Source: Shewanella sp. MTB7
Lineage (GTDB): Bacteria; Pseudomonadota; Gammaproteobacteria; Enterobacterales; Shewanellaceae
Assembly (NCBI RefSeq): GCF_027571385.1
Contig: NZ_CP085636.1
Location: 3,910,001-3,974,000 of the forward strand
Length of the DNA stretch: 64,000 nt
Direction: 5' to 3'
The position numbers and the translations under genes were made by a program. This document shows, piece after piece, positions 50,413-64,000 of the stretch (positions are counted from its first letter, which is position 1; each line of letters starts with the position of its first letter). The notes under the pieces are model-generated. The model saw nothing but the letters and a program-made list of their open reading frames with translations. It made no database searches and was not told the origin of the DNA.

Positions 50413-51348
50413 CTAACGATTCAAAAACTCACCTATTAAACGATAAACCTGCTCACACTCCTCTTTAACGAGATCTTCCATATTCATGAAGGTATGGATC
50501 ATATCATCAAAATGAATAAGCTCAGCCTTACCACCAGCTTCATTAACCTTCTGACAGTAAGATTGACCTTCATCTCTTAATGGACAAAACTCTGCGGTAA
50601 ACACCAAGGTTTCAGGTAGCGCTTTGGTGATGTCACCGTACAATGGTGAGGCTTTGACTCTATCATCTGTTGCACTAAAGTAATTATCGAAGTACCAGCC
50701 AATTTTACCTTTCTGTAATAAGTAACCTACCCCATTTTGCTCCATTGAAGGGCTATCCATAGTGTAATCTAGGCTTGGGTAGATCATAACCTGTTTTTTA
50801 ATGGTTACAGACTCATCAAACTGAGCACGACTAGCCACACTGGCCACGAGTGCGCCGCCGCCAGAATCTCCGACAACCGATAACACTTTAAGGTAATTGA
50901 TCTCACGCAAATCAAGTGTAGCCCAGATATTTTGCATCACCGCATAGCCATCATTAACACCTGCTGGATATCGACACTCTGGGGCTAGTCGATAATCTAC
51001 CGACACGACGATATGCTGCGTTGCATTGGCAAGCTTACGGCAAATGGGATCGTAAACCGTGATACTTCCTGCCATATGCCCACCACCATGGAAGTACACA
51101 ATTACAGGTAGCTTTTGTTCTGGGGCTGGATGATAAATTCGAACAGGAACATTGTACTGTTCGTTCATTACAAGATCATCTGCAACCCAAGCGATCTCAG
51201 GAATATCTGTCACTAGGCCTTTCGTCAGATTAGCCAGTCCTTCCCGTGCGTTGGTTGCTGTGGGCTTAAAGCCATTTTCAACTAATATAGCAACCTGTTG
51301 ATTGAAATTTTCTAGCCAAGGCTTTAACTTTTCACTGACATTTCTCAT
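50413..51348 (-). CDS. Alpha/beta hydrolase, hormone-sensitive-lipase family
   Basis: A 311-residue cytosolic esterase. It has the oxyanion-hole motif FHGGGH (86–91), VDYRLAPE, and the nucleophile GDSGGG with Ser162. The likely catalytic histidine is in DDMIHTFMNM. Such enzymes cut short-chain esters. Placed after an MFS transporter and beside a predicted PHB locus, it could split imported 3-hydroxybutyrate oligomers, but this is inferred from context. The start at 51348 has AAGGGGAA upstream; the longer frame overlaps the MFS gene. Confidence 0.85.
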   Translation of the reverse strand: MRNVSEKLKPWLENFNQQVAILVENGFKPTATNAREGLANLTKGLVTDIPEIAWVADDLVMNEQYNVPVRIYHPAPEQKLPVIVYFHGGGHMAGSITVYDPICRKLANATQHIVVSVDYRLAPECRYPAGVNDGYAVMQNIWATLDLREINYLKVLSVVGDSGGGALVASVASRAQFDESVTIKKQVMIYPSLDYTMDSPSMEQNGVGYLLQKGKIGWYFDNYFSATDDRVKASPLYGDITKALPETLVFTAEFCPLRDEGQSYCQKVNEAGGKAELIHFDDMIHTFMNMEDLVKEECEQVYRLIGEFLNR

Positions 51349-51358
51349 ATTGTTCCCC

Positions 51359-52564
51359 TTACGCTTTTTTAGCTGTAGCAGATGGTATCGCCAGTTTTTT
51401 CTTGCCGGTCTCAGGCAGGAAGAAACTGGCAAGGAAGAAGGTTGAAGAGCAAGCAACAGCAAAGGTTGCAGATATCGCGATGTTCCCAGTCACATCCGCT
51501 AAGACGCCAGCAATATACATTAGCCCTGTTTCAATCGCATAAGAGAGTGACCAGAACATACCGAAGACCACTGTAATACGTGCAGGCGTCATATTAGGTA
51601 ACTCCTGTGGAAGGGTGATTAGCGCAGTCATGGGGACAAACATAAAGAAACCAGCCATAAATGCGGCGAAATAAGCAACATCGGCACTTGAGGTCGTGAT
51701 CATAAGCGCAGCAAATGCGGTCATAGCTAAACCACAGTAACGGATAACAGGGACACGAAATGGATAGCGTTTAGCTGTGATAATACCAGCAATAGTTCCC
51801 ACCATACCGGCACCAATCATAATCGATGATAGATATTTAGCCTCTGCTGCAAAGCTTGGAACCATAGGGAAAAGTGCAAATACTGAGATATAGCAAAACA
51901 ACAAACCTGAGTAAGCGATAGGAAGCCAGAAATTAATAGGGTCTTTAAAACCATCTTTTAATGTATAAGTCTCCTTTACAGCTCCCCCCTTAGCGCCCCC
52001 ATCAAGAGAGAAATCATCACTGACAAACCACCAGATAACTAATACAACAAAACTGGCTAACGAGATGACCAAAATAACATTCTGCCAAGTCTGAAAGTTA
52101 GCTATCAAGGTACCTGTTAGTAGAATAGCAAGAAGGTTACCTGTGTTAAACGCCGCGGCATTGATACCGTTGATCATCGGACGCTCTTCAGCAGAAAAAT
52201 ACTTCACTACGATAGGGTTGAAGTAAACAATAACGAATGCACCACCGAACCCCATCACTAATCGAGAGATAACGTACAGTGGATAACTTGATGCAAAAGC
52301 ACCGAGTGCACCTAAAACAATCAAAATAGAAGCGAAAGTAAAGGCTTTCTTAGGGCCCATCTTCACCAATAGCCAAGCAGCCGCTAAATTACCAATGATC
52401 TTGGCAATGGTAATAGCATTGGTCATCCAAGTCGCTGCAGCAATCCCCTCAATTTCATAATAACTCATGATATCTGTTGTCATCATAGAGCCTGCTACCC
52501 AAGACATAGCGAAAAGCGCATATGTCATAAAAATTATCATCTCAATTAGATGTTTTCTTGTCAT
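51359..52564 (-). CDS. MFS transporter, probable carboxylate carrier
   Basis: A 401-residue inner-membrane protein with about 12 helices of the major facilitator type. It contains VISRLVMGFGG between helices, and LLVKMGPKKAFTF resembles the loop 2–3 signature. It lacks any drug-pump hallmark. It is ten bases upstream of the HSL-type hydrolase and forms an operon with it. Context suggests import of a short carboxylate or ester such as 3-hydroxybutyrate or its oligomers. A motif shared with other promoters of the locus lies ~75 bases upstream. Confidence 0.8.
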   Translation of the reverse strand: MTRKHLIEMIIFMTYALFAMSWVAGSMMTTDIMSYYEIEGIAAATWMTNAITIAKIIGNLAAAWLLVKMGPKKAFTFASILIVLGALGAFASSYPLYVISRLVMGFGGAFVIVYFNPIVVKYFSAEERPMINGINAAAFNTGNLLAILLTGTLIANFQTWQNVILVISLASFVVLVIWWFVSDDFSLDGGAKGGAVKETYTLKDGFKDPINFWLPIAYSGLLFCYISVFALFPMVPSFAAEAKYLSSIMIGAGMVGTIAGIITAKRYPFRVPVIRYCGLAMTAFAALMITTSSADVAYFAAFMAGFFMFVPMTALITLPQELPNMTPARITVVFGMFWSLSYAIETGLMYIAGVLADVTGNIAISATFAVACSSTFFLASFFLPETGKKKLAIPSATAKKA

Positions 52565-52638
52565 TTTAGACCCCAGTATATAAAGATATTATTTTTAACT
52601 GACTCCTATAGTACCCAATAATAATCATGACGATCTTC

Positions 52639-52653
52639 CCGATTTCGCAATAT
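52639..52653 (+). promoter_or_regulatory. Partial copy of the locus motif upstream of MFS
   Basis: TCCCGATTTCGCAAT-like sequence matches the core of the 18-base motif at 62744 in about 13 of 15 bases. Its orientation is opposite to the MFS gene. It overlaps an inverted repeat GCAAT–ATACA–ATTGC. Confidence 0.3.
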
Positions 52654-52755
52654 ACAATTGCATTGGGGATCTCAGTTCACTCTCATTTTTTCACACCAAC
52701 TTCCATCTTGCTCACAGTTTAACGTCTTTATATCATTGACTATTTAGATTGCCAT

Positions 52756-52790
52756 ATAAAAAAGCACCGAATGTCTCCATTCAGTGCTTT
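52756..52790 (-). terminator. Terminator of the CoA-transferase–maoC–fabV operon
   Basis: AAAGCACCGAAT pairs with ATTCAGTGCTTT (one mismatch) around a six-base loop, with a T-run on the minus strand. Confidence 0.85.
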
Positions 52791-52828
52791 ATGTGGTCAA
52801 TAATGGTTTAGTCTATTGCATACTTTAC

Positions 52829-54028
52829 TTAAGGCTGTAGTCGAGTGAGTGAATCAAAATCAACACGCGCCTGATAATCTACCTCTGGAAAACCAAAGCC
52901 ATTTAGCTGCATAAACTCAGCCTTATATCCTTTATAGTCACCCATTTCAGCAAAATTATCTGGAGTGATCTTAGCCATCAACTTATCAACTTCTTGTTGC
53001 ACCGAAACATCGAGTTCCCAGTCATCAACACGAATTAATCGATCTTTATCAACTGGAATGTCTGCAGTGCCATATACACGATCAGCAAAGAGCCTTTGCA
53101 TCTGCTCAATACAGGTCTCATGAGTTCCCTTGCGCTTCATGACTCGATACAGCGCAAGGATATAAGGAGAAAATGCAGGAATGTAAACACTCGCCTTGGT
53201 GACTAACGCCTTACATACTGATACATGAGCACTGCCACCGATAGCACTCAGCTTGTCGTTGAGCTTATTCCCCGTGGCATGCAGATGTGTCTTAGCACGC
53301 CCTAAAGTACCTTGGTGGTAGATAGGATAAGTGCTCTTACCGCCGATATAGGAGTAGGCAAGTGTCTTACATCCCGTTGCCAGCACACCCGCTTCAGATA
53401 GAATGTCTATCCAGCTTTCCCAGTCTTCCCCCCCCATCACCTTCTCTGTATCAAAGATCTCCTGCTCTGTCGCAGTACCTACTGTCATCAGCTCCATAGT
53501 ATCAGTTTCAATATTGATCGTTGGCCCTGTTACCGGCTCACCGACAGTTTTGATACTTGAACGCCACATACCACCGGTTTCAGGATTAGGTCTAATGCCC
53601 GTTGCTAAGCTATAAACAACAAGGTCAACCTTGCCACCAAACTCGGTGCGAATATACTCAATCACCTGAGCACGCATAGCGGGGGAAAACGCATCACCAA
53701 CAAAGTTTTTAGCGATTAGGCTTGCCTGCTCCGCCTGCTCACGAAAATAGATGTTGTTATACCAACCTGCACTGCCGACACCTTTTTCACTGGGACCACG
53801 CTCAAATGACACTCCTATGGTGTCAGCGGATGCTCCGCCAAAAGCCAATGACACTCTTGATGCCAGTCCAAAACCTGAAGAAGCACCTAAAATCAATACT
53901 TTTCTAGCACCTGACTCGATGGCTTTCGCTGATTTAACATAGTTAATCTGGTTTAAGATGGATTGCTTACAACCTGCTGGATGTGAGTTACGTGCAACAA
54001 CACCTTTAACAATGGGTTCGATAATCAT
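52829..54028 (-). CDS. fabV: FabV/TER-type trans-2-enoyl-CoA/ACP reductase
   Basis: A 399-residue reductase of the FabV family, which uses NADH to reduce trans-2-enoyl-ACP or -CoA. The nucleotide-binding GASSGFG is at 48–54. The active-site Tyr237-x8-Lys246 (YHQGTLGRAK) is intact. Length matches the family. It is the last gene after the CoA-transferase and the MaoC hydratase, 22 bases from maoC, so crotonyl-CoA is a plausible substrate. It may therefore serve a butyryl-CoA route rather than, or as well as, fatty acid synthesis. Confidence 0.9.
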   Translation of the reverse strand: MIIEPIVKGVVARNSHPAGCKQSILNQINYVKSAKAIESGARKVLILGASSGFGLASRVSLAFGGASADTIGVSFERGPSEKGVGSAGWYNNIYFREQAEQASLIAKNFVGDAFSPAMRAQVIEYIRTEFGGKVDLVVYSLATGIRPNPETGGMWRSSIKTVGEPVTGPTINIETDTMELMTVGTATEQEIFDTEKVMGGEDWESWIDILSEAGVLATGCKTLAYSYIGGKSTYPIYHQGTLGRAKTHLHATGNKLNDKLSAIGGSAHVSVCKALVTKASVYIPAFSPYILALYRVMKRKGTHETCIEQMQRLFADRVYGTADIPVDKDRLIRVDDWELDVSVQQEVDKLMAKITPDNFAEMGDYKGYKAEFMQLNGFGFPEVDYQARVDFDSLTRLQP

Positions 54029-54050
54029 AAAAGTTCCTAGATTTAGTCTG

Positions 54051-54470
54051 CTAAACGGCTTTGGGAGGCATTACAGTTGCTACACCTTCGATCACGACTA
54101 CGCCGTTCTGATTAATACTTTGTGTTTTAAGCTTGACGATATTCTTGTCGCTAATGATCTCATCTACCGTCACTTCAGCTCTTATTGTATCGCCGATATA
54201 CACAGGTGCTTTAAAGCGCAATTCTTGTCCTAAATAGATAGTTCCAGGACCAGGTAACTGCATTCCAAGTACTGCAGAGGTTAAACCTGACACTAATATT
54301 CCGTGGGCAACTCGTGCACCAAATACACTATCTTTACCCGCAAGATCACTGACATGCACAGGGTTAATATCACCACTCACACCACAAAAAAGCTGAACAT
54401 CTGTCTCTGTGATGGTTTTCTCAAAACGAGCTTTCTGCCCAAGATGTAACTGTTCAATTGTGTAACTCAT
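54051..54470 (-). CDS. MaoC-like (R)-specific enoyl-CoA hydratase (PhaJ type)
   Basis: A 139-residue single hot-dog domain. The catalytic Asp and His are in CGVSGDINPVHVSD, the standard PhaJ hydratase-2 motif, with GARVAHGILVSG following. It should interconvert (R)-3-hydroxyacyl-CoA and trans-2-enoyl-CoA, e.g. 3-hydroxybutyryl-CoA and crotonyl-CoA. It sits between the CoA-transferase and fabV, which would then act in sequence. AGGTAAG precedes the ATG. Confidence 0.88.
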   Translation of the reverse strand: MSYTIEQLHLGQKARFEKTITETDVQLFCGVSGDINPVHVSDLAGKDSVFGARVAHGILVSGLTSAVLGMQLPGPGTIYLGQELRFKAPVYIGDTIRAEVTVDEIISDKNIVKLKTQSINQNGVVVIEGVATVMPPKAV

Positions 54471-54497
54471 ACTACTTACCTATTTGTGCTTTAATGC

Positions 54498-56090
54498 TTA
54501 CGCTGCGGTGTCAATTTGGGAGCTGAAGTGCTTGTCACCCAATGTGAGTCCCATCGGAGCATCAATGAAGATACGTCTGTCCATCACTTTTAGATTGGCA
54601 CTAATGCTTGGCATGAAATCCATTTTTTGCAAAATGTCTTTATCTAGATCAACACCGGGGGCTATTTCGATAAGCTCAATACCTTTTTCAGCCAGCTTGA
54701 ATACGGCTCTCTCGGTAATGTAGAGGACTTTTTTGCCATTTTTTCTTGCGACATCGGCGGCAAAAGTGATCTGAGCCACTTTTGGAATAAGCTTGCAGAT
54801 ATGACCATCTTTAACGATCTCAAGCTCGCCACTCCCCGTCTCTATCTGCAGTTTTCCTGCGGTAAAGGTGCCACAGAAAAATACCTCCTTAGCATTTTGA
54901 GTGATATTGATAAAACCACCACAACCAGCGATTTTCGATCCAAATTTGGACACGTTAAGATCGCCATTTTCATCACATTCCGCTAACCCCAAAAACGCTT
55001 GGTCAATACCACCACCATCGTAAAAATCAAACATCTGATCTTGGGTAATGATAGCCTCAGGAAATGCCGATGCGCCGAAGCTCAAACCACCAGCAGGCGT
55101 ACCACCAATGGCTCCGGGCTCAACAGTGGCAATCATCTGATCAGTTATGCCCTCTTCATCGGTCACACTAGCAATCACCTCTGGCGCACCAATACCGTAA
55201 TTGAGAATGGCCCCTCTTTTTAACTCCATCGCAGCGCGGCGAGCAATAATTTTTTTAGCATCTAAAACCCTAGGTACCTGCTTATCATCACCTTGCTCCC
55301 CACGTCCACAATAGGCTGGATTCATGTCCTCAGCAAAGGTTTGCATATGGTGTTCTTCGTCGGTGTTCACCACGACTGCATTAACAAAAATACCTGGTAT
55401 ACGCACCTGCTGTGGATCTAACTCACCGACTTTTACAATACGTTTAACCTGCACAATTACTGTGCCGCCCATATTAGTCACTAACTGAGCTGCAGCTAAG
55501 TTTTCTAAGAAAAGGCACTCATCCTCCATGGTAATATTGCCATTTTCATCGGCTGTCGTACCTCTAAGCAGAGCAACATTGGCATCCATGCGCTTATAAA
55601 ATAGATAATCATTGTTATCTATGTTCATTACAGACACGCGTTCCTCTTTGGTTACACTATTAATCTTGCCACCATCAATACGTGGGTCGATAAAAGTACC
55701 AAGCCCAACATGTGAAATAGTGCCAGGCTTGCCAGCTGCAGAATCACGCAACAGCTGTGCGATGACCCCCTGAGGAAAGTTGTAGGCTTGAATTAAATTT
55801 TCATTAACAAGCTTTTGTAAGCGAGGGATAAGTCCCCAGTGGCCACCCATAGCCATTTTGACCATCCCTTGGTGCGCCATATGGTTAGCGGCTTTAGTGG
55901 AACCGTCACCTTGGCCCGCGGTAAAGTAGAGTTCTAATGCTTTAGGGTGGCCAGAGCTTAGGAATCGCTCACCGATGGCTTTCTCTATTGCTTCGGGAAC
56001 AACTGCACCGATAAAGCCGCCTAAAATCACTTTATCTTCATCCTTAATCAAAGATGCTGCCTGCGTTGCTGTCAGTACTTTCACTTTCAT
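54498..56090 (-). CDS. Acyl-CoA transferase (class I, YdiF/propionate type)
   Basis: A 530-residue fused-subunit CoA-transferase. The glycine-rich front DKVILGGFIGAVVPEAI starts the alpha half. The beta half holds the catalytic glutamate in ATVEPGAIGGTPAGG (Glu near residue 324). Such enzymes transfer CoA from acetyl- or other acyl-CoA to short acids; here 3-hydroxybutyrate, acetoacetate or butyrate are likely. The ATG at 56090 has AGGAA ahead of it and is preferred over the ATG at 56111. It is first in an operon with maoC (27-base gap) and fabV. Confidence 0.88.
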   Translation of the reverse strand: MKVKVLTATQAASLIKDEDKVILGGFIGAVVPEAIEKAIGERFLSSGHPKALELYFTAGQGDGSTKAANHMAHQGMVKMAMGGHWGLIPRLQKLVNENLIQAYNFPQGVIAQLLRDSAAGKPGTISHVGLGTFIDPRIDGGKINSVTKEERVSVMNIDNNDYLFYKRMDANVALLRGTTADENGNITMEDECLFLENLAAAQLVTNMGGTVIVQVKRIVKVGELDPQQVRIPGIFVNAVVVNTDEEHHMQTFAEDMNPAYCGRGEQGDDKQVPRVLDAKKIIARRAAMELKRGAILNYGIGAPEVIASVTDEEGITDQMIATVEPGAIGGTPAGGLSFGASAFPEAIITQDQMFDFYDGGGIDQAFLGLAECDENGDLNVSKFGSKIAGCGGFINITQNAKEVFFCGTFTAGKLQIETGSGELEIVKDGHICKLIPKVAQITFAADVARKNGKKVLYITERAVFKLAEKGIELIEIAPGVDLDKDILQKMDFMPSISANLKVMDRRIFIDAPMGLTLGDKHFSSQIDTAA

Positions 56091-56439
56091 AATATTTTCC
56101 TTCAAAACCATTAATTCGACCGTCTAATAGCCTTTTGACAAAATAGCTCTTAGGTAATGACTAAAGTTTAAGCCCCATAGATTAATGAGGAAATAGACAA
56201 AAGATGAAAGGATAATTGCAAAAATGGGATAATGTGAGGTTGATTGTTTTACACACGTTTCAAGTAGATAGATAAATCGAAAATAGACATGACTAATTTA
56301 ACAATAGTTAGATTACTTATTATTTAAGAGGACACTATTCATATTTTGATGAGTTGAATTGAGAAAAATATCGAAATAAAGAGCTGCTATATAATATCTC
56401 TATACCAGCTCTTTTGCTCAATTACTATATTAACCAATA
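56091..56439. other. Promoter region of the CoA-transferase operon
   Basis: About 350 bases containing the shared motif (56215–56232) and, at the far end, a weak terminator for the porin (56379–56415: GAGCTG–N19–CAGCTC). No gene seen. Confidence 0.5.
56215..56232 (-). promoter_or_regulatory. Shared 18-base motif, copy upstream of CoA-transferase
   Basis: On the minus strand it reads TTATCCCATTTTTGCAAT, matching 16 of 18 bases of the copy at 62744. It ends 124 bases before the CoA-transferase start, in the same orientation as that gene. Confidence 0.5.
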
Positions 56440-57765
56440 CTAGCCAAAGCTGACTCGTAGCGTTGTCATAACAGCGGTATCATCGATATCTTCATCTGCA
56501 TGACCAGCCCTAAGTTCTATAGTGTTACCTTTGCTGAATTTGTACAGGGCTTTTACATCATAAAAAGTACCGTATGTATTATCTCGATAGTTTTCAGGCA
56601 ACACACTATGTAGGTCGGCGTTGTATAAGTCTAACTCCATTCGCCCAACAGCAACCGTAAATTCAAGTTCATCAGAATGGTGCCAATTTGCTCTTAAACC
56701 ATAGATGACTCCATCTTTACCCGCGTTGCCATTAAAATCACCTAAACCGCCAAAGAATTCAGTACGAGTCGGGTTTATCTCGTTTCTAGGTGAGTTGTTG
56801 ATCAGCATTGAGTAACTGTCCCACCCTCTTCCCACTTGTCCACCATCACCGATCCCTGCAATTTGAGCCTGCAACTGAAATTCAGGTGTGATCTGATAGC
56901 CAGCCTCTAAGAATGCAGCCCAGCTATTGTTCCCCCAAAAATAGATGGCATCATCGTCATTGGCATCTGATAAATTAATGTTTGCAGCCGTTTTAAATGA
57001 AAATTTCCCAATCGTTTTACCTAGATATGGGGAGATATTATGGAAGTTTTTAATATAATAAGGATTTGATATTTCAGAAAAATCACTCGGTGCTGATTCA
57101 CCATCAAAATATGACCATAACATCCCCCAGTCAAGACCATTTTGATTACCGATTGCTGCTAGGGCATACATATTAAGATCACCGGTCGAAAAATCTTCCA
57201 GGCTATTATCAGAAAAATCCTCGGAGAAGCGCAGATCATACAAACCAAGTAAACCAACATAACCACCATCGGTCATATAGGTTTTCATTGCGAGGATTCG
57301 ATCCCTCCGATCATCGGCAATATTAAAGCCATAAGCCCAGCTAGCCTCTTGGCGACCAGCACGAAATAACCATCCATCTTCACCTTTATATTCGAGATAA
57401 GCGACATCTAATGACAAGGAGTCAAGATTATCGTCACTGGTATAGTCATTACCAGAGCCTCCACTATGACGACGATCCCCAGCCCAATCATAGAAGCCGA
57501 GCAAACGGGTATTAATCGACCAACCGGTTTCGTTTGTAACATTAAGAGTGAATCTTACTTGCGATTGAGCACCGTTTATACTGTCACCAGTATTAAAATT
57601 ACCCTCACCGTTATCAACGTTGTAAGCTTTTATGAATGCGTCGGCTTTATATTCAATTTTACCCACGTTCTCAATTTCCACTGATGCCGCAATTAAAGCC
57701 GGAGATATCAATCCTAAAGAGCAAGCCAAAGCTATTTTTGTTAATTTAGTTCTCATATTATTCAT
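56440..57765 (-). CDS. Outer-membrane beta-barrel porin
   Basis: A 441-residue protein with a signal peptide (PALIAA|SV) and a long series of amphipathic strands (FTLNVTNETGWSINTRLLGFYD, LFRAGRQEASWAYGFNIADDRRDR). The arginine-rich constriction-like stretch resembles OprD-, AlgE- or FadL-like specific porins; the family is not certain. It lies directly beside the PhaZ7-like gene and is probably the outer-membrane channel for its products. The ATG at 57765 has AGGAA eight bases upstream. The frame open beyond this overlaps the end of the depolymerase gene and is not used. Confidence 0.75.
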   Translation of the reverse strand: MNNMRTKLTKIALACSLGLISPALIAASVEIENVGKIEYKADAFIKAYNVDNGEGNFNTGDSINGAQSQVRFTLNVTNETGWSINTRLLGFYDWAGDRRHSGGSGNDYTSDDNLDSLSLDVAYLEYKGEDGWLFRAGRQEASWAYGFNIADDRRDRILAMKTYMTDGGYVGLLGLYDLRFSEDFSDNSLEDFSTGDLNMYALAAIGNQNGLDWGMLWSYFDGESAPSDFSEISNPYYIKNFHNISPYLGKTIGKFSFKTAANINLSDANDDDAIYFWGNNSWAAFLEAGYQITPEFQLQAQIAGIGDGGQVGRGWDSYSMLINNSPRNEINPTRTEFFGGLGDFNGNAGKDGVIYGLRANWHHSDELEFTVAVGRMELDLYNADLHSVLPENYRDNTYGTFYDVKALYKFSKGNTIELRAGHADEDIDDTAVMTTLRVSFG

Positions 57766-57815
57766 TTCCAATTTTCCTGATTTTATTAGTATTTTTATAT
57801 TTAACAGAGTGTAAT

Positions 57816-58922
57816 TTAAAGCGCATTGCTGACCGGACCACTCAGATAGTTGATAGCGCAAGTAATACCTTCACAGTCACTTGTCAGCATCTCGACCAAT
57901 ATGGCACCGCTGTTTATTTTGCTATTAAAATGTCCAACGCCATCCAGATCCCCACCGGATAAGTTATAAGGACTTAAATCACTAAAATTGAAGTCAAGTG
58001 CACTTGCTGTCGTGCCCGCTCCCAGTTGTAGTTGTGCAATAACATTGCTGTCAGGTGTGAATAGTGCCCCATTAACACAAGTTCTCTGTCCCGACATTGT
58101 TGTACAGTGGATTTGGTCGTGTAGCCCCGCAGTCAAACTGTAGAATCGACTACCGAGTACCTGTGAAGGAAAATGGCGCATACTGAGGGAATCATTATTA
58201 CCAGTCCAAGCATTCTTTCCCCATATTGGTGAAAAGCTGCCATTATCAGGATAGAGTCCAAAAGTGTTCGCCTCATATAGGTTTTGGCTACCACAAGTTG
58301 GAATGAGAGCATTCGCATATCCAATATAGAGACACGACTCTAACCCCCTAATTGCACCACCAATATTAATAAATCGGTCAACTTTGTTCCAAGCGTGATG
58401 TTTATGTAGACTTGAAATAGCTAATGAAACCCCTAGAGAATGAGCCACTATATTGACCTTATTCTGGCCCGTATATATCAGGACATCCTCAATAAATTGA
58501 GCAATAGTTTGTTGCGGAACTGCGTCATGGTAATTAAGCTGAGGAGATTGGCGCTGCTCGTTAGAAAGATAAGTTAACCCGAACAATTCACAGTCATTGT
58601 AGCCAGCTTGTTTAAATGACTCATAAACAGAAAATGGGACTTGCGGGTAGTTTTCAGGTTGAACACTTGGTGGCAAAGCCCAACCGATGGCATTGTCTCC
58701 ATTACCATGGAGAAATATAATTGGTGTTTTACTTGCCTGACAGTTTCCGCCGCCAAATCCACCGTCAATATATTTATCTTGGTCTACGAAATTATCCGAA
58801 AATTGATAATTTGAATCTGAACAAACAAATCCATTGTGATTATTACATTCTACTGAATAAGCATTAGTTGATATAAGTGATATTGATAGCACCCAAAAAA
58901 TAATGACGATTTTGTTACGCAT
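57816..58922 (-). CDS. PhaZ7-like extracellular PHB depolymerase
   Basis: A 368-residue secreted protein with a signal peptide (residues 1–23, AYS|VE). The front after it (GGFGGGNCQASKTPIIFLHG, GNGDNAIG), YNDCELFGLTYLS, IRGLESC and PTCGSQN closely match Paucimonas lemoignei PhaZ7 as I remember it. The catalytic triad aligns: Ser162 in AHSLG (AHSMG in PhaZ7), Asp269 in AGLHDQ and His331 in GVGHF. Cys spacing is also shared. PhaZ7 cleaves amorphous poly(3-hydroxybutyrate) without a substrate-binding domain, and none is present here. AAGGTG precedes the ATG at 58922. It lies 50 bases before the porin gene, probably one operon. Confidence 0.82.
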   Translation of the reverse strand: MRNKIVIIFWVLSISLISTNAYSVECNNHNGFVCSDSNYQFSDNFVDQDKYIDGGFGGGNCQASKTPIIFLHGNGDNAIGWALPPSVQPENYPQVPFSVYESFKQAGYNDCELFGLTYLSNEQRQSPQLNYHDAVPQQTIAQFIEDVLIYTGQNKVNIVAHSLGVSLAISSLHKHHAWNKVDRFINIGGAIRGLESCLYIGYANALIPTCGSQNLYEANTFGLYPDNGSFSPIWGKNAWTGNNDSLSMRHFPSQVLGSRFYSLTAGLHDQIHCTTMSGQRTCVNGALFTPDSNVIAQLQLGAGTTASALDFNFSDLSPYNLSGGDLDGVGHFNSKINSGAILVEMLTSDCEGITCAINYLSGPVSNAL

Positions 58923-59098
58923 TTTTAACACCTTAATACCGTTAACAACACACAACCATATTAACCAATTGCAAAACTTTCTTATCTAATAAATTCGGGA
59001 TTCTTTTTTTCATTAACGGGATGTTAATAGGGTAACTAAGAAATGAAAACACAGATATTATTAGCGAACTTTCAGTTAATAATATTAGGAGCAAGTCT

Positions 59099-59983
59099 AT
59101 GTGCCAACAAATAAATACTGAAAAAGTGATCTTAACGAATGGTGAACAGATTTATTATAGAGAATGTGGTACAGGGCCAGTTTTAGTTATATTACATGGT
59201 AATATGACCTCGTCTTTTCATCTTGAAGAGTTTATGAAATCTATCTCTTCAAAGTTAAGGGTTATTGCTCCTGATATGCGGGGATTTGGCCTGTCTAGCT
59301 ATAAAAACCCCATTTCCAGCTTGAATGATCTCTCTGATGATATTGCAAATCTACTCAAACAACTCAATATAGAATCCTATGCCATCGCGGGTTGGTCTAC
59401 CGGTGGAGGAGTTGCAATTCAACACTGTATCAATCATAGCGAAAAAATCAGTCAACTCGTACTCATTAGCAGCATAGGAATGGATGGCTATCCGATTAAG
59501 GCCAACGGGGGGCAAGGAGATTACCTTAAAAGTAAACAAGCAATATTAGATGATCCAATGTTTGCGCCTATTTTCACTGCATTCAAAAATAAAGATAAGG
59601 ATTTTGTACGTGGCTTATGGGATATGGTGGTCTATAACCATAATAAACCAACCGCACAAGACTACGAATTACTAATTGATGATGTGTTAACACAAGTCAA
59701 CTTAGCCGATATCTATTTTTCATTATCCATCTTCAATTTAACTCACGATTTTAACGGTGTTATTAATGGCACGGGCCAAATTCATCAATTTAAGACACCG
59801 ACTTTAATTTTACACGGTGAGGATGACCTGATTATTTCGATAGATACCGCGCTACACACCCATAAAATGATAACGGATCTTGAGATCCCTATCACAATAA
59901 AAACATATCCTAATAGTGGACACTCATTGTTTATCGATCAACTTGACGACATCAGTCATCAAGTTCTAACTTTTATTAAATAA
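59099..59983 (+). CDS. Alpha/beta hydrolase, possible 3HB-oligomer hydrolase
   Basis: A 294-residue alpha/beta hydrolase with no signal peptide. The oxyanion loop is ILHGN, the nucleophile Ser100 is in GWSTGG, and the acid and histidine are in HGEDDLII and NSGHSLF. It is divergent from the PhaZ7-like gene, 176 bases away, and 17 bases ahead of a lipoprotein hydrolase in the same direction. Context suggests cytosolic hydrolysis of 3-hydroxybutyrate oligomers. AGGAG stands eight bases ahead of the ATG. Confidence 0.8.
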   Translation: MCQQINTEKVILTNGEQIYYRECGTGPVLVILHGNMTSSFHLEEFMKSISSKLRVIAPDMRGFGLSSYKNPISSLNDLSDDIANLLKQLNIESYAIAGWSTGGGVAIQHCINHSEKISQLVLISSIGMDGYPIKANGGQGDYLKSKQAILDDPMFAPIFTAFKNKDKDFVRGLWDMVVYNHNKPTAQDYELLIDDVLTQVNLADIYFSLSIFNLTHDFNGVINGTGQIHQFKTPTLILHGEDDLIISIDTALHTHKMITDLEIPITIKTYPNSGHSLFIDQLDDISHQVLTFIK

Positions 59984-60000
59984 TAACTAGGGTCTATAAA

Positions 60001-61557
60001 ATGAATAGAAGTATCAAGTTTCACCTACTCTCATTATCACTGTTCACACTTTTAGCAGGCTGTACAACGACTCAATATCCAGTGAAGAATATGCAAGCTT
60101 TAAGCGTGACACAAGAATGTGACGGTAGCTATTGGCAAGACTGTGTTACTTATCCGTTTGCTGTGCAATATGCGCAGGTGAAAGATGACTCGGGGCTTGA
60201 ATGGCAAGTTGCCTATATGGACGAATATGCCGGTGACCAGATCACACCTGAGACCGTCGTACTAATCCATGGTAAAGGTGTATATGGCGGTTATTTTGCA
60301 GATCTAATGAATGCCTTACTGACTGAGGGTTACCGTGTCATTGTGCCCGACCTACCCAATTATGGTAAATCCATCCCAGGGAACCTAGAGAACCCAGTGA
60401 CACGTTCACTAGATGATACCCGTAGCGCCATTCATGATCTGTTAACACATAAATTAAATGTAAATAAAGCCAGCTTTCTCGGCCACTCAATGGGAGGCCA
60501 GTGGGTAATAGGTTATGCCTTAGCATATCCGGAGCAAGTAAATAAAATAATACTTGAAGCTTCCGGTGGTATGGAAGAGTTTCCAACAAACATTGCTGGA
60601 CTGTCATTTTTTGGTGATGAACAACAAACATCATATGATAATTGGGAGAAAATCTGGGGCAGTACCCTGAAAAAGGAACAAGTTAAAACAGCAGAAGATA
60701 TCGCATTGTTTAACTATTTTAAGGCAAGGAATCCTGACAGCGGCGAGATAATGGATTCTCCAGCTGGATATTTTATCAATAAAACTCCAATGACAGAGTA
60801 TATAACCCAAAATCGTCAGTATATGATTAATAATTCAGCTGAAGAATATAAGTCATACACAGAAACCTATATCAGAGATATCTATTCAATGGGCGTTGAA
60901 GTCCGCATTGAAGACCCTACAAGCCTAGTTAAAAAGATTGATCAGATTAAAGCACCAATGCTTATCACTTATGGTGAGAAAGAACCTTTTATTCCAACAA
61001 CCATTTTTAGTGGTCAGCAAAGTTTACGTTGGGACATCATTAAGCCCGTGTATGACAAATTAGCAAGTAATAATAACGAGCCTACAGTGATAATTTATCC
61101 AAATGTTGGCCATTTCATCCATACAGATATTCCTGAAAAATTTAATCAAGACGTCATTAAATTTCTTGCTGGCGATAGGATCTCCGGTGCTGAAAAAGTC
61201 TCAACTTATAAACCGCCAGTAATTGTGCCACCAGAAGAAGTAACCGCTTTTTTTAATAAGTTCAAGCATGCTTTAGTGAGTCAGCATAAGGCCAGCATAG
61301 CCACTTTCTATGCAGAAGACTTTGTTGAAAATGGCTATGATAAATCAGCCTTCTTAGCGATCTTATATAGCCAAATGGCCAATGTTAACGATTACAAGGT
61401 CTCGTTAATCAAGTTTGAGAAAGATCCCAACAAAACAGATGAGTATTTCGTTGAAGGAATGGTGAATTTAGGCAACATATCTGTTCCCTTTAGTAAAGGG
61501 AGCAAAGTACTTAAGACTTTAGATGGATGGAAGTGGTTGGGTAACAGAAAATCCTGA
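60001..61557 (+). CDS. Surface-lipoprotein alpha/beta hydrolase with C-terminal extra domain
   Basis: A 518-residue protein with lipobox LLAGC (Cys21) followed by Thr, so outer-membrane sorting is likely. Residues ~60–395 are an alpha/beta hydrolase: VLIHGKG oxyanion loop, nucleophile Ser163 in GHSMGG, TYGEKEPFIP near the acid, and NVGHFIHTD with the histidine. Residues ~405–518 look like an NTF2/SnoaL-like domain, an unusual addition. It may degrade polymer fragments at the cell surface or in the periplasm. It is co-transcribed with the upstream hydrolase. Substrate is not proven. Confidence 0.75.
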   Translation: MNRSIKFHLLSLSLFTLLAGCTTTQYPVKNMQALSVTQECDGSYWQDCVTYPFAVQYAQVKDDSGLEWQVAYMDEYAGDQITPETVVLIHGKGVYGGYFADLMNALLTEGYRVIVPDLPNYGKSIPGNLENPVTRSLDDTRSAIHDLLTHKLNVNKASFLGHSMGGQWVIGYALAYPEQVNKIILEASGGMEEFPTNIAGLSFFGDEQQTSYDNWEKIWGSTLKKEQVKTAEDIALFNYFKARNPDSGEIMDSPAGYFINKTPMTEYITQNRQYMINNSAEEYKSYTETYIRDIYSMGVEVRIEDPTSLVKKIDQIKAPMLITYGEKEPFIPTTIFSGQQSLRWDIIKPVYDKLASNNNEPTVIIYPNVGHFIHTDIPEKFNQDVIKFLAGDRISGAEKVSTYKPPVIVPPEEVTAFFNKFKHALVSQHKASIATFYAEDFVENGYDKSAFLAILYSQMANVNDYKVSLIKFEKDPNKTDEYFVEGMVNLGNISVPFSKGSKVLKTLDGWKWLGNRKS

Positions 61558-61657
61558 TCCATTTATGCAAAAATAACTTTAAATAGCGTTAGCGTAGGTG
61601 CATAAGCGCCTATGCTATGGAATATATCACCCACCATTTTCTAACCGAGTGCAACGA

Positions 61658-62575
61658 TCATCTGCTTTCTAACTCTGCAGCTATCTCGGTCACCCGCCGT
61701 ATCAAAAAGTCTTTAAAATTCACACAACGAGTTGGCATTTGCTTTCTTGGCCTAAAATAGAGTCCAAATTCAAAATGGCTATTACTGTAATCATCTAGGA
61801 TTGGCACCAGCGCTCCCTCATCTAACTCTTGCTGTATTAAACTGGTAGGAAGATAAGCAATCCCAGCTCCCGTTAACGCGACACTTTTTAAGAATTCACT
61901 GTCTTCAACCTCGACAGTTTGAGCGATCTCAACCGTTGTAAACTCACCATCTCGCTCAAAGACCCATTTATTCCCCCCAACCAATGTGGACGCATATAAG
62001 CAATTATGCTTTTTTAGCTCTTCGGGTGTATGAGGTACAGAAAAACGTTCGATGTAACTTGGAGAACAACACACTTTAAGGGGATATCTGAGCAATGATC
62101 GCTTGACCAACAAACTGTCCTTTTCTTGGTAGCCTTGATAAGTCGCGTTAGCACGAATAGCAAAATCAACCTCCCCGATATGATCCATCTCATAAGCGGT
62201 TTCAACAATCTTAAATGAGACATAGGGATATTCACACAGATACTCACCCACAACTTTACTGAGAAATTTATTGGCAAATAGAGGGGTACTGGCAATACGA
62301 ATAACTCCTCTATCATCATTGCCTAAGTTCTGGATCTCAGTAAGAATGTCATCAATCTCGGTATTTACATGACAAAAGCGATCAAACAGACGCTCACCTG
62401 CTTGTGTCGGAACCACTTTACGAGTTGAGCGCTTTAGCAAGCTCACCCCCATATTATCCTCTAACTCAATAATCCAACGACTACCTGCTGAAGCAGAAAT
62501 ACCATACTGCTTGGCTGCATCACTAAAAGATCCTGTTCTAACTACATGCAAAAAATAGACAATTTTATCTAGCAT
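61658..62575 (-). CDS. LysR-type regulator of the PHB-like locus
   Basis: A 305-residue LysR protein. The winged helix-turn-helix is at the front (DKIVYFLHVVRTGSFSDAAKQYGISASAGSRWIIELE), and the effector domain runs from ~residue 90 (VIRIASTPLFANKFLS). It is divergent from the SDR–thiolase genes, the usual layout for a LysR regulator and its target. The upstream frame begins at a TTG; the ATG at 62575 is preferred. It may bind the shared motif at 62744 and 56215. Confidence 0.85.
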   Translation of the reverse strand: MLDKIVYFLHVVRTGSFSDAAKQYGISASAGSRWIIELEDNMGVSLLKRSTRKVVPTQAGERLFDRFCHVNTEIDDILTEIQNLGNDDRGVIRIASTPLFANKFLSKVVGEYLCEYPYVSFKIVETAYEMDHIGEVDFAIRANATYQGYQEKDSLLVKRSLLRYPLKVCCSPSYIERFSVPHTPEELKKHNCLYASTLVGGNKWVFERDGEFTTVEIAQTVEVEDSEFLKSVALTGAGIAYLPTSLIQQELDEGALVPILDDYSNSHFEFGLYFRPRKQMPTRCVNFKDFLIRRVTEIAAELESR

Positions 62576-62743
62576 AGAGACTTCACTGTTGATGAATGTT
62601 GGGGTCAATCACAAATTAACCGTTTGAAATACATGCTGAACAAGTGAAGCTTAATGCCGATAGCATCACTTATAAAGCCATATCGTAAGCATAACCCCAC
62701 AATTACCAAACACTATCCCATATAAATTGTAGAGAAATGTTTT

Positions 62744-62761
62744 TTATCCCTATTTTGCAAT
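62744..62761 (+). promoter_or_regulatory. Shared 18-base motif, copy upstream of SDR–thiolase
   Basis: TTATCCCTATTTTGCAAT lies 118 bases before the SDR start, in the same orientation. It is nearly identical to the copy 124 bases before the CoA-transferase start. It sits in the LysR/SDR divergent region. Confidence 0.5.
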
Positions 62762-62879
62762 AGTGTTTTGTTCCATTAACGCTAAACATTCAATGATCCT
62801 GCGCCTAAAATAGTTTCAAATCTAAGCAAATATCGCTTCTTAGTAGACATTTGCTCACTCTCAAAATGGTGGAATAATT

Positions 62880-63614
62880 ATGCTAAATAACAAGATCTGT
62901 ATTGTCACTGGTGGCGCACAAGGTATTGGCCGCTGTATCGTAGAAACTTTCGCTAAACAAGGTGCGCTTAAGGTTTACGCTTGTGACATGAACCTTGAAG
63001 CGATGCGTGACCTTGAAACTTTATACAGTAATGTATCAGCCAAGCAACTTAACGTCTGTGATCGCAACGGTATTCAAGCGCTAATCGAAACACTAAAAGC
63101 TGAACATGGCAAAATTGATGTATTGGTCAATAATGCAGGCATTACCCGTGACAACTTGCTCAACAAAATGAGTGAGGATGACTGGGATATGGTCATCAAC
63201 GTTAACCTTAAAGGTGTGTTCAATATGACACAAGCTGTGGCGCCGTTAATGATTGAAAATGGTACTGGTTCAATCATTACTATGTCTTCTGTTGTTGGTA
63301 CTGACGGTAATATCGGACAGACAAACTATGCAGCCACTAAAGGCGGTGTGATCACCATGACCAAAGGTTGGGCTAAAGAGTTTTCCCGTAAGGGCGCACA
63401 AGTACGCGCAAACTGTGTGGCTCCTGGATTTATCGAAACACCTATGACCATTGAGCTGCCAGAAAAAGTACTCAATTTTATGAAAAGTAAAACACCACTT
63501 GGACGTATGGGCAAGCCTGAAGATATTGCAAATGGTGTACTTTTCCTTGCGAGTGACAGTGCCAGTTTCATCACTGGTCAGACACTAAAAATTGATGGAG
63601 GTCTTGTAATATAA
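62880..63614 (+). CDS. Short-chain dehydrogenase, acetoacetyl-CoA reductase/FabG-like
   Basis: A 244-residue SDR. The cofactor motif TGGAQGIG is at 10–17, NNAG at 84–87, and the catalytic Ser137, Tyr150 and Lys154 are all present. SFITGQTLKIDGGLVI closes the fold. The size and sequence fit FabG/PhaB. Next to a thiolase gene it most likely links acetoacetyl-CoA and (R)-3-hydroxybutyryl-CoA. It could also be a 3-hydroxybutyrate dehydrogenase. GGTGGA precedes the ATG. Confidence 0.87.
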   Translation: MLNNKICIVTGGAQGIGRCIVETFAKQGALKVYACDMNLEAMRDLETLYSNVSAKQLNVCDRNGIQALIETLKAEHGKIDVLVNNAGITRDNLLNKMSEDDWDMVINVNLKGVFNMTQAVAPLMIENGTGSIITMSSVVGTDGNIGQTNYAATKGGVITMTKGWAKEFSRKGAQVRANCVAPGFIETPMTIELPEKVLNFMKSKTPLGRMGKPEDIANGVLFLASDSASFITGQTLKIDGGLVI

Positions 63615-63699
63615 CTGAATAACATTCAATAACGTGTTGCTCGAGCATCGATTATTAAGCGTTACTCTAGTGTCAAAATAACTCAGTTTAGGAAAAAGT

Positions 63700-64000
63700 A
63701 TGAAAAAAGTATTTATTGTAGGTGCTAAGCGAACGGCGCTTGGTAGTTTTGGCGGAACACTTGCTTCAGTCCCTGCTCACCAACTTGGTGGGGAAGCCAT
63801 TAAAGCAGCATTGGCACAGTCTCAAGTTTTACCAGAGTATCTTGATGAAGTGATTGTCGGTAACGTACTCAGTGCAGGTCAAGGAATGGGACCTGGTAGA
63901 CAAGCGTCTCGCTATGCGGGAGTTCCTGATACAATTCCGGCTTATACCCTCAATATGATCTGCGGCAGCGGTATGAAAGTGGTTATCGAAGCTGCGACAA
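63700..64000 (+). CDS. Acetyl-CoA acetyltransferase (thiolase), cut by window end
   Basis: The first 100 codons of a thiolase. It starts MKKVFIVGAKRTALGSFGGTL, and the acylated active-site Cys88 is in NMICGSGM. The family would run to about 390 residues, so most of it lies beyond the window. GGAAAAA stands before the ATG. With the SDR 85 bases upstream it forms a phaB–phaA-like pair, able to split acetoacetyl-CoA to two acetyl-CoA or to make it. Confidence 0.9.
   Translation, partial: MKKVFIVGAKRTALGSFGGTLASVPAHQLGGEAIKAALAQSQVLPEYLDEVIVGNVLSAGQGMGPGRQASRYAGVPDTIPAYTLNMICGSGMKVVIEAAT

Follow-up and report, generated by a model that had tools for sequence, protein, structure and literature searches.

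What would a marine Shewanella make of poly(3-hydroxybutyrate) (PHB) left by other bacteria, and would it need an electron acceptor to use it? The question is raised by a locus in a 64,000-nucleotide stretch of the Shewanella sp. MTB7 genome (the window; 3910001–3974000 of a genome assembled as one contig of 6,367,435 bases, with feature coordinates given as window positions), in which a putatively secreted depolymerase of the PhaZ7 type lies among genes for uptake, hydrolysis and coenzyme A (CoA) chemistry. As a storage polymer PHB is widespread, and it is also sold as a bioplastic. Given the family identities, their linkage and co-occurrence, and a promoter motif common to two catabolic gene runs, the locus is a real, conserved utilization island for PHB or 3-hydroxybutyrate (3HB) with a predicted function. 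Use of PHB or 3HB oligomers by the genes as one unit is well supported, and a probability of about 0.5 is given to a scavenging island able to run as a fermentation to acetate and butyrate.

Organization of the locus

From left to right, the minus strand carries an esterase, a carrier, a reductase, a hydratase, a two-domain CoA-transferase, a porin-like barrel and PhaZ7, followed by two alpha/beta hydrolases on the plus strand, a LysR-type regulator on the minus strand, and a short-chain dehydrogenase/reductase (SDR) and a thiolase on the plus strand:

50413..51348, minus strand: Abhydrolase_3 esterase, like hormone-sensitive lipase (HSL), putative cytoplasmic 3HB-oligomer hydrolase (Pfam PF07859, E 3e-56)
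51359..52564, minus strand: major facilitator superfamily (MFS) carrier, putative importer of 3HB or oligomers (PF07690)
52761..52790, minus strand: terminator-like stem of 13 pairs 3' of the reductase gene, dividing the CoA-transferase, hydratase and reductase from the carrier and esterase (consensus scan)
52829..54028, minus strand: reductase like trans-2-enoyl-CoA reductase (TER) in the FabV/TER family, a dedicated second copy (structure scores, NCBIfam, tree)
54051..54470, minus strand: MaoC/PhaJ-type (R)-specific enoyl-CoA hydratase (PF01575; 5cpg and 1iq6 the best solved relatives)
54498..56090, minus strand: two-domain YdiF-type acyl-CoA:carboxylate CoA-transferase (PF01144; YdiF 2ahu); the open reading frame (ORF) opens at 56111, the conserved ATG is at 56090
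56215..56231, minus strand: promoter motif TATCCC-N6-GCAAT 5' of the CoA-transferase, a putative LysR operator (conserved in alignment)
56440..57765, minus strand: putative outer-membrane barrel protein (porin, by eye) of no known family, 50 bases after PhaZ7; start codon uncertain
57816..58922, minus strand: PhaZ7-type native-PHB depolymerase, putatively secreted (NF050060, solved PhaZ7, triad)
59099..59983, plus strand: intracellular-type depolymerase of short-chain-length polyhydroxyalkanoates (scl-PHA), or 3HB-oligomer hydrolase (NF050089)
60001..61557, plus strand: putative lipoprotein alpha/beta hydrolase with an extra C-terminal region, putative periplasmic oligomer esterase (Pfam; leader and GHSMG in alignment)
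61658..62575, minus strand: LysR-type regulator (Pfam); ORF opens at 62608, probable ATG at 62575; neighbor of the SDR in relatives
62745..62761, plus strand: motif TATCCC-N6-GCAAT in the LysR–SDR intergenic region (conserved in alignment)
62880..63614, plus strand: FabG-family SDR, putative NAD-dependent (R)-3-hydroxybutyryl-CoA dehydrogenase (NCBIfam, structures, Asp36)
63700..64000, plus strand: acetyl-CoA acetyltransferase (thiolase), truncated where the window ends; the full gene (408 aa) ends at window position 64926 in the genome

These genes had been named by an earlier sequence-only reading of this DNA; all lie where it placed them and all but the porin match Pfam or NCBIfam. The porin it named is a barrel protein only by eye, and its thiolase is present but truncated by the window end and complete in the genome. 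By eye, the gene flanking the locus on the left resembles a polB-type DNA polymerase and that on the right a DinG-type helicase.

The depolymerase and its companion hydrolases

The protein at 57816–58922 passes the NCBIfam model for the 'extracellular native scl-PHA depolymerase PhaZ7' (NF050060; 524.9 bits, cut-off 450) and is matched over nearly its whole length by the solved PhaZ7 of Paucimonas lemoignei (PDB 2vtv; E 2e-99), to which it is also alike in catalytic triad and in its putatively secreted type. Ser162, Asp269 and His331 (numbered from the ATG at 58922) are invariant in all six aligned family proteins, an alignment without the S. marina PhaZ7 because its match begins at query residue 67. 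The sequence-only reading had claimed PhaZ7 with these three residues and proposed an alignment with PhaZ7 as a check; model and triad bear this out, and the placement in an unrelated lipase group that it named as a refutation is excluded by NF050060 and by the match to the solved enzyme. An ordinary lipase was likewise rejected, the Lipase_2 match being at superfamily level while the PhaZ7 equivalog model is passed. Secretion is suggested by a hydrophobic, signal-peptide-like N-terminal leader judged by eye, and cleavage of amorphous PHB is the activity predicted from PhaZ7 family identity.

The hydrolase at 59099–59983, listed previously as an alpha/beta hydrolase, is one, but its membership in a PHA-depolymerase family had been overlooked: it passes NF050089 ('intracellular scl-PHA depolymerase'; 313.6 bits, cut-off 300), as do the orthologues in all five relatives tested (314–322 bits), and its best solved relatives are the PHB depolymerase structures 8ynv and 8ynw (220 and 219 bits, with the next at 64). 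The neighboring hydrolase at 60001–61557 has a lipoprotein-type leader by eye (LLAGC; LAGC in the alignment) and a GHSMG motif, and in its profile search meta-cleavage hydrolases rank above PHB depolymerase 8ynv (E 2e-10). AlphaFold models of this lipoprotein and of the porin (mean pLDDT 46 and 28) were too poor for structure searches. No match to the porin was found in Pfam, NCBIfam or the PDB, profile search included; its orthologues adjoin PhaZ7 in five relatives. The Abhydrolase_3 esterase falls under the curated cut-off of every listed NCBIfam family; orthologues occur in S. benthica, S. marina and the Shewanella genomes G011 and G053, and in two genomes of another family (G814 and G987), while the S. 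canadensis stretch stops short of its position. The MFS carrier is present in G053, G814 and G987; it did not turn up in the stretches retrieved for G011, S. benthica and S. marina.

Enzymes of the catabolic gene runs

The families of CoA-transferase, 3HB-CoA dehydrogenase, thiolase, hydratase and enoyl reductase occur together in the locus. YdiF (2ahu) is the nearest solved relative of the CoA-transferase (473 bits), and the (R)-specific enoyl-CoA hydratases 5cpg and 1iq6 are nearest to the MaoC protein (114 and 103 bits), aligning with it across D-x-NPxH, in which the Asp and His, which we take to be the active-site residues of PhaJ-type hydratases, are retained. FabG is the nearest family of the SDR, which passes the FabG subfamily model NF009466 (247 against 222 bits) as well as broader SDR models, and which is not of the BdhA family (157.7 bits, cut-off 307). 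Asp36, which closes the second strand of the SDR, is invariant in nine of nine aligned sequences; Asp at this position of SDRs marks NAD(H) use, and the top structures for the SDR, 4nbt and 4nbu, are presumably NADH-dependent FabGs.

The reductase is not the housekeeping FabV, a possibility rejected because a separate core copy exists. FabV is matched in 116 of the 117 genomes of the genus (115 above cut-off; the genome without a match is 52% complete), and a second full-length copy is present in exactly the five genomes with PhaZ7. The second copies score lower than intact core copies (579–591 against about 650–690 bits), and the remaining extra matches are partial: G101 has a 61-aa fragment, the gene of G055 is broken up, and the core copy of S. 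marina is split. Against solved structures, the locus reductase finds the Clostridium acetobutylicum TER (CA_C0462, 4eue) first (415 bits, 51% identity, so that about half of the residues differ) and FabV at 382 bits or less, whereas the MTB7 core copy finds FabV 5xi0 first (760 bits) and the C. acetobutylicum TER last but one (353). The locus copies also group with this TER in a tree of 11 sequences, which carries a long-branch warning. NADH-dependent reduction of crotonyl-CoA is a putative activity of the locus copy.

In G011, G053 and S. benthica, genes for acetate kinase (AckA) and phosphotransacetylase (Pta), which pass TIGR00016 and TIGR00651, lie directly 3' of the reductase. For S. canadensis the stretch breaks off within the reductase gene, before any position for them. 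A relic of ackA or pta between the carrier and the reductase in the window was looked for, and none was found.

Beside the thiolase, a methyl-accepting chemotaxis protein is encoded in three relatives (S. canadensis, L002:12908-14575; G011, L010:11123-12790; S. benthica, L042:5977-7665), with an sCache_2 domain found in the first and third and ascribed to the second by likeness. These proteins possibly serve chemotaxis to 3HB or related acids.

Distribution and gene order

PhaZ7 is rare. Matches above cut-off, MTB7 included each time, number five in the 117 genus genomes, three in a sample of 369 from the class and two in a sample of 398 from the phylum, with totals of 10 in the class sample and 16 in the phylum sample once weaker matches (E 0.001) are included, and a tblastn search of plasmids gave two weak haloarchaeal matches. 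The locus CoA-transferase (E 1e-40) is found in the same five genomes of the genus and, like PhaZ7, in none of the remaining 112, among which is one genome 52% complete. These genomes share a history, so the co-occurrence is no test of independence.

Loci were compared for six species: MTB7, S. canadensis (L002), S. benthica (L003/L042), S. marina (L012), G011 (L010/L040) and G053 (L011/L041). In all six, PhaZ7, the porin and the two hydrolases facing away from PhaZ7 form one block. This block lies between LysR and the CoA-transferase in MTB7 and G053, while in the other four species LysR adjoins the CoA-transferase and the block is off to one side, so that the order has been shuffled with the genes still neighbors. 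The LysR orthologue adjoins the SDR in relatives. In G053 the polymerase and helicase flank genes adjoin each other, and the PHB genes follow about 3 kb beyond the helicase, esterase end first; the position of the block relative to the flank genes therefore varies between species. Gene order in other Shewanella had been proposed as a check on the locus, and across these rearrangements its genes are neighbors in each of the six species. Hydratase and reductase are present in all eight loci compared (MTB7, five relatives in the genus, G814 and G987). In S. marina (G001) the CoA-transferase, LysR and core FabV are each in two pieces, which may reflect assembly errors or real decay.

Outside the genus, PhaZ7 above cut-off is found in L038 and L039 (44–46% identical), where none of the other 14 query genes, nor AckA or Pta, was found in the 19.9 and 14.6 kb retrieved; the P. 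lemoignei locus itself was not part of the comparison.

The module without PhaZ7 and a second PHB locus

Within the order, 15 of 295 genomes have a match to the CoA-transferase at E 1e-80, MTB7 included, and of the 14 others, 11 were searched for PhaZ7 (G972, G1029 and G1080 were left out) and six were read beyond a flank of about 1.5 kb. G814 and G987, which belong to one genus of another family, hold the thiolase, SDR, LysR, CoA-transferase, hydratase, reductase, carrier, esterase and porin in one block, with proteins 70–85% identical to those of the window locus (porin, 41–47%). A module specific to PhaZ7 everywhere is rejected by these two genomes, which lack PhaZ7, and the catabolic module is accordingly not strictly a polymer module. 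It probably serves 3HB or oligomers generally, with PhaZ7 and the two hydrolases adapting it to the polymer in Shewanella. Both genomes have PhaC, and no PF10503 depolymerase was found in either. A shorter run of LysR, CoA-transferase, SDR and thiolase, without hydratase or reductase, is seen in G568, G789, G794 and G995 (fetched stretches of 4.5 kb; 20 kb for G789).

Two variants stand apart. The neighbors of the short module in G789 (L071) include a DctP-type binding protein, a histidine kinase with an sCache_2 domain and an ORF resembling response regulators, and the whole is possibly a locus for 3HB uptake and sensing. In G915 (L052/L070) a 72% identical CoA-transferase is beside an MFS-like ORF, and no match to the hydratase, reductase, SDR or LysR was found in the 17 kb fetched around it.

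MTB7 has a second PHB locus (1420158-1430171, L086) with ScoA, ScoB, BdhA and a 700-aa type-1 extracellular PHB depolymerase, with a small number of other genes interspersed, and a further NF050058 depolymerase at 1444019-1445008. Like the window locus, it has a PHB depolymerase, an SDR, a CoA-transferase and homologues of the carrier and the HSL-like esterase (42% and 39% identical). It differs in that, by its enzymes, free 3HB would be oxidized to acetoacetate before CoA transfer, and its depolymerase is of another family (NF050058); no MaoC, TER or AckA–Pta was seen in its ORF list. Sharing of the carrier and esterase pair between the two loci provides separate evidence for handling of 3HB or oligomers by the window locus. 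Among 10 genomes checked, PF10503 is matched only in MTB7 and G281, and BdhA passes its cut-off only in MTB7 and G915.

A PHA synthase had not been seen at the locus by the sequence-only reading, and this extends to the whole genome as far as the PhaC_N model (PF07167) reaches, class III and IV synthases not having been searched with their own models. PhaC_N was likewise found in no protein of S. marina, G011 or S. benthica (G058); G053 has one.

A shared promoter motif

By alignment, TATCCC-N6-GCAAT occurs upstream of both the CoA-transferase and the SDR. The exact motif is at both promoters in five of the eight loci (MTB7, L002, L010, L011 and L066), at one of the two in L012, L042 and L068, and is missing from all 11 comparison stretches (two of them overlapping). 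In the 6.37 Mb MTB7 genome, TATCCC-N6-GCAATW, its trailing W added after the sites were known, has three sites, one at each of the two catabolic promoters and one elsewhere, and the reversed control has none. If one mismatch is tolerated, the number of sites in the window is unremarkable: three, where 1.3 are expected and 12 of 100 shuffles give at least as many. From the place of the motif we infer that LysR binds it.

A predicted route to acetate and butyrate

Localization, transport, substrates, direction of flux and anaerobic use are predictions in the following scheme. Secreted PhaZ7 would cut amorphous PHB to 3HB oligomers, which would cross the porin; the lipoprotein esterase, the MFS carrier, the intracellular-type PHA depolymerase and the HSL-like esterase would complete uptake and hydrolysis to (R)-3HB, and the CoA-transferase would convert this to (R)-3HB-CoA with CoA from acetyl-CoA or butyryl-CoA. 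One part would be oxidized by the SDR with NAD+ and cleaved by the thiolase to acetyl-CoA, which could yield ATP through Pta and AckA, encoded in the gene run of three relatives; in MTB7 this step would need AckA and Pta from outside the locus. The other part would be dehydrated by the PhaJ-like hydratase and reduced by the TER-like enzyme with that NADH to butyryl-CoA, and so to butyrate. The predicted net is 2 3HB to 2 acetate and butyrate with about one ATP: by this count one acetyl-CoA would activate the 3HB to be oxidized, butyryl-CoA would activate the 3HB to be reduced, and the other acetyl-CoA would provide the ATP.

With an oxidative and a reductive branch in the locus, and AckA and Pta in three relatives, dismutation fits better than plain oxidation to acetyl-CoA. 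The sequence-only reading had proposed one pathway from the polymer to acetyl-CoA or butyryl-CoA. Scavenging as one unit is upheld by co-occurrence, gene order and the common motif, whereas the end of the pathway is less supported; the island is also of greater interest than that reading stated because the enzyme families spell a dismutation.

Several observations weigh against the fermentative route. Shewanella are mainly respiratory, and flux through the locus could run the other way. AckA and Pta are absent from the loci of MTB7, S. marina, G814 and G987 (housekeeping copies were not searched), and PhaZ7 was found in none of the 11 CoA-transferase genomes searched, G814 and G987 among them. 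The SDR is under the cut-offs for PhaB (203 against 436 bits) and for acetoacetyl-CoA reductase TIGR01829 (241 against 302). The locus reductase passes the NCBIfam FabV equivalog (484 against 400), scores the other TERs (T. denticola, 24yk) under FabV, and in the 11-sequence tree the T. denticola TER groups with FabV; 'TER-like' is therefore a lead and not a membership, and the earlier label of FabV-type holds as far as the model goes, yet the protein is nearer to the C. acetobutylicum TER than to the core FabV of its own genome. The PhaZ7 promoter has two ATCCC repeats but lacks the full motif, so that a regulon shared with PhaZ7 is not established, and control by FNR, CRP or ArcA was rejected, with only sites of two mismatches in four MTB7 intergenic regions.

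Alternative explanations

The strongest alternative, which we nonetheless hold to be unlikely, is that PHB scavenging here is purely respiratory, with 3HB-CoA passing to acetyl-CoA and the tricarboxylic acid cycle, and the hydratase and reductase acting as a minor NADH valve or on other acids (crotonate, 3-hydroxyvalerate). This would suit the respiratory habit of the genus, a locus in MTB7 without AckA and Pta, the separation of the SDR–thiolase run from the CoA-transferase–hydratase–reductase run, and the four genomes whose fetched stretches show the short module lacking both hydratase and reductase, with a DctP-type binding protein next to it in G789. It sits poorly with a genome already equipped with an oxidative route through BdhA and ScoAB, with hydratase and reductase in eight of eight loci, and with the AckA and Pta that follow in G011, G053 and S. 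benthica.

It is improbable that the genes instead run reverse beta-oxidation from acetyl-CoA, the thiolase, SDR, hydratase and reductase making butyrate as a fermentative electron sink and PhaZ7 being an unrelated neighbor. The four enzymes in order do make up an (R)-type reverse beta-oxidation, and the module of G814 and G987 exists without PhaZ7, but the CoA-transferase shares its five genomes with PhaZ7, a PHA-depolymerase-family protein (59099–59983) is a neighbor, the carrier and esterase recur at the PHB/BdhA locus, and porin and esterase accompany the module even in G814 and G987. Turnover of the cell's own 3HB or oligomers as a pressure or osmotic solute is more doubtful still. In its favor, 3HB acts as a piezolyte in Photobacterium profundum, and the locus is present in S. 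benthica. PMC5877338, in the part that was available, cites Shewanella among deep-sea PHA producers and a title on oligo(hydroxyalkanoate)s. Against it, PhaZ7 has a signal-peptide-like leader by eye, porin and carrier suggest uptake, and PhaC_N is found in only one (G053) of the five genomes named above.

Relation to known systems

The net reaction predicted for the fermentative route is that of 3HB and PHB fermentation by Ilyobacter polytropus and I. delafieldii, a likeness in physiology; in the accessible portions of the sources, 2 3HB -> 2 acetate + butyrate + H+ is stated for I. polytropus (PMC10096456), which does not use the polymer (PMC3035301). Ilyobacter are strict anaerobes of the Fusobacteriaceae, unlike MTB7. 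PhaZ7-like sequences of S. sediminis and another Shewanella, thus of the same family and genus, are named without experimental data in PMC7830162, and the text seen describes no locus. PHB-degrading Shewanella are not new, as excerpts of PMC5877338 cite PHA-degrading Shewanella and a paper on a marine Shewanella PHB depolymerase; PMC10817984, seen in part, is a further paper of this background. No PHB locus of this layout, nor a fermentative reading of one, was found by title, opening of the abstract or consulted passages in the literature searched, whose coverage leaves out most subscription journals. For the anoxic conversion of PHB to acetate and butyrate, the portions consulted offer physiology and mixed-culture work and no genes.

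A PHB-to-acetate-plus-butyrate locus in a respiratory gammaproteobacterium, with ATP by substrate-level phosphorylation and a separate oxidative locus elsewhere in the same genome, so that the polymer is used with or without an electron acceptor, is a tentative proposal, held somewhat short of even odds. If the enzymes are read correctly, a marine Shewanella would live off other bacteria's PHB by fermentation and not only by respiration. With such a set of genes defined in a genus that can be cultured, who ferments PHB and with which enzymes would become directly testable, and PhaZ7, TER-like and CoA-transferase genes together, along with the TATCCC-N6-GCAAT motif, could serve as markers in metagenomes.

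Minor features of the region

Terminator-like sites in the region number eight by the consensus scan, against 10.2 in shuffles. Composition gives no sign of recent transfer (G+C of 0.411 for the locus and 0.412 for the rest of the window). Short RAYT-like (REP-associated) transposase ORFs are seen by eye near both PHB loci of MTB7 (L001:7000-8070 and L086:14704-15709).

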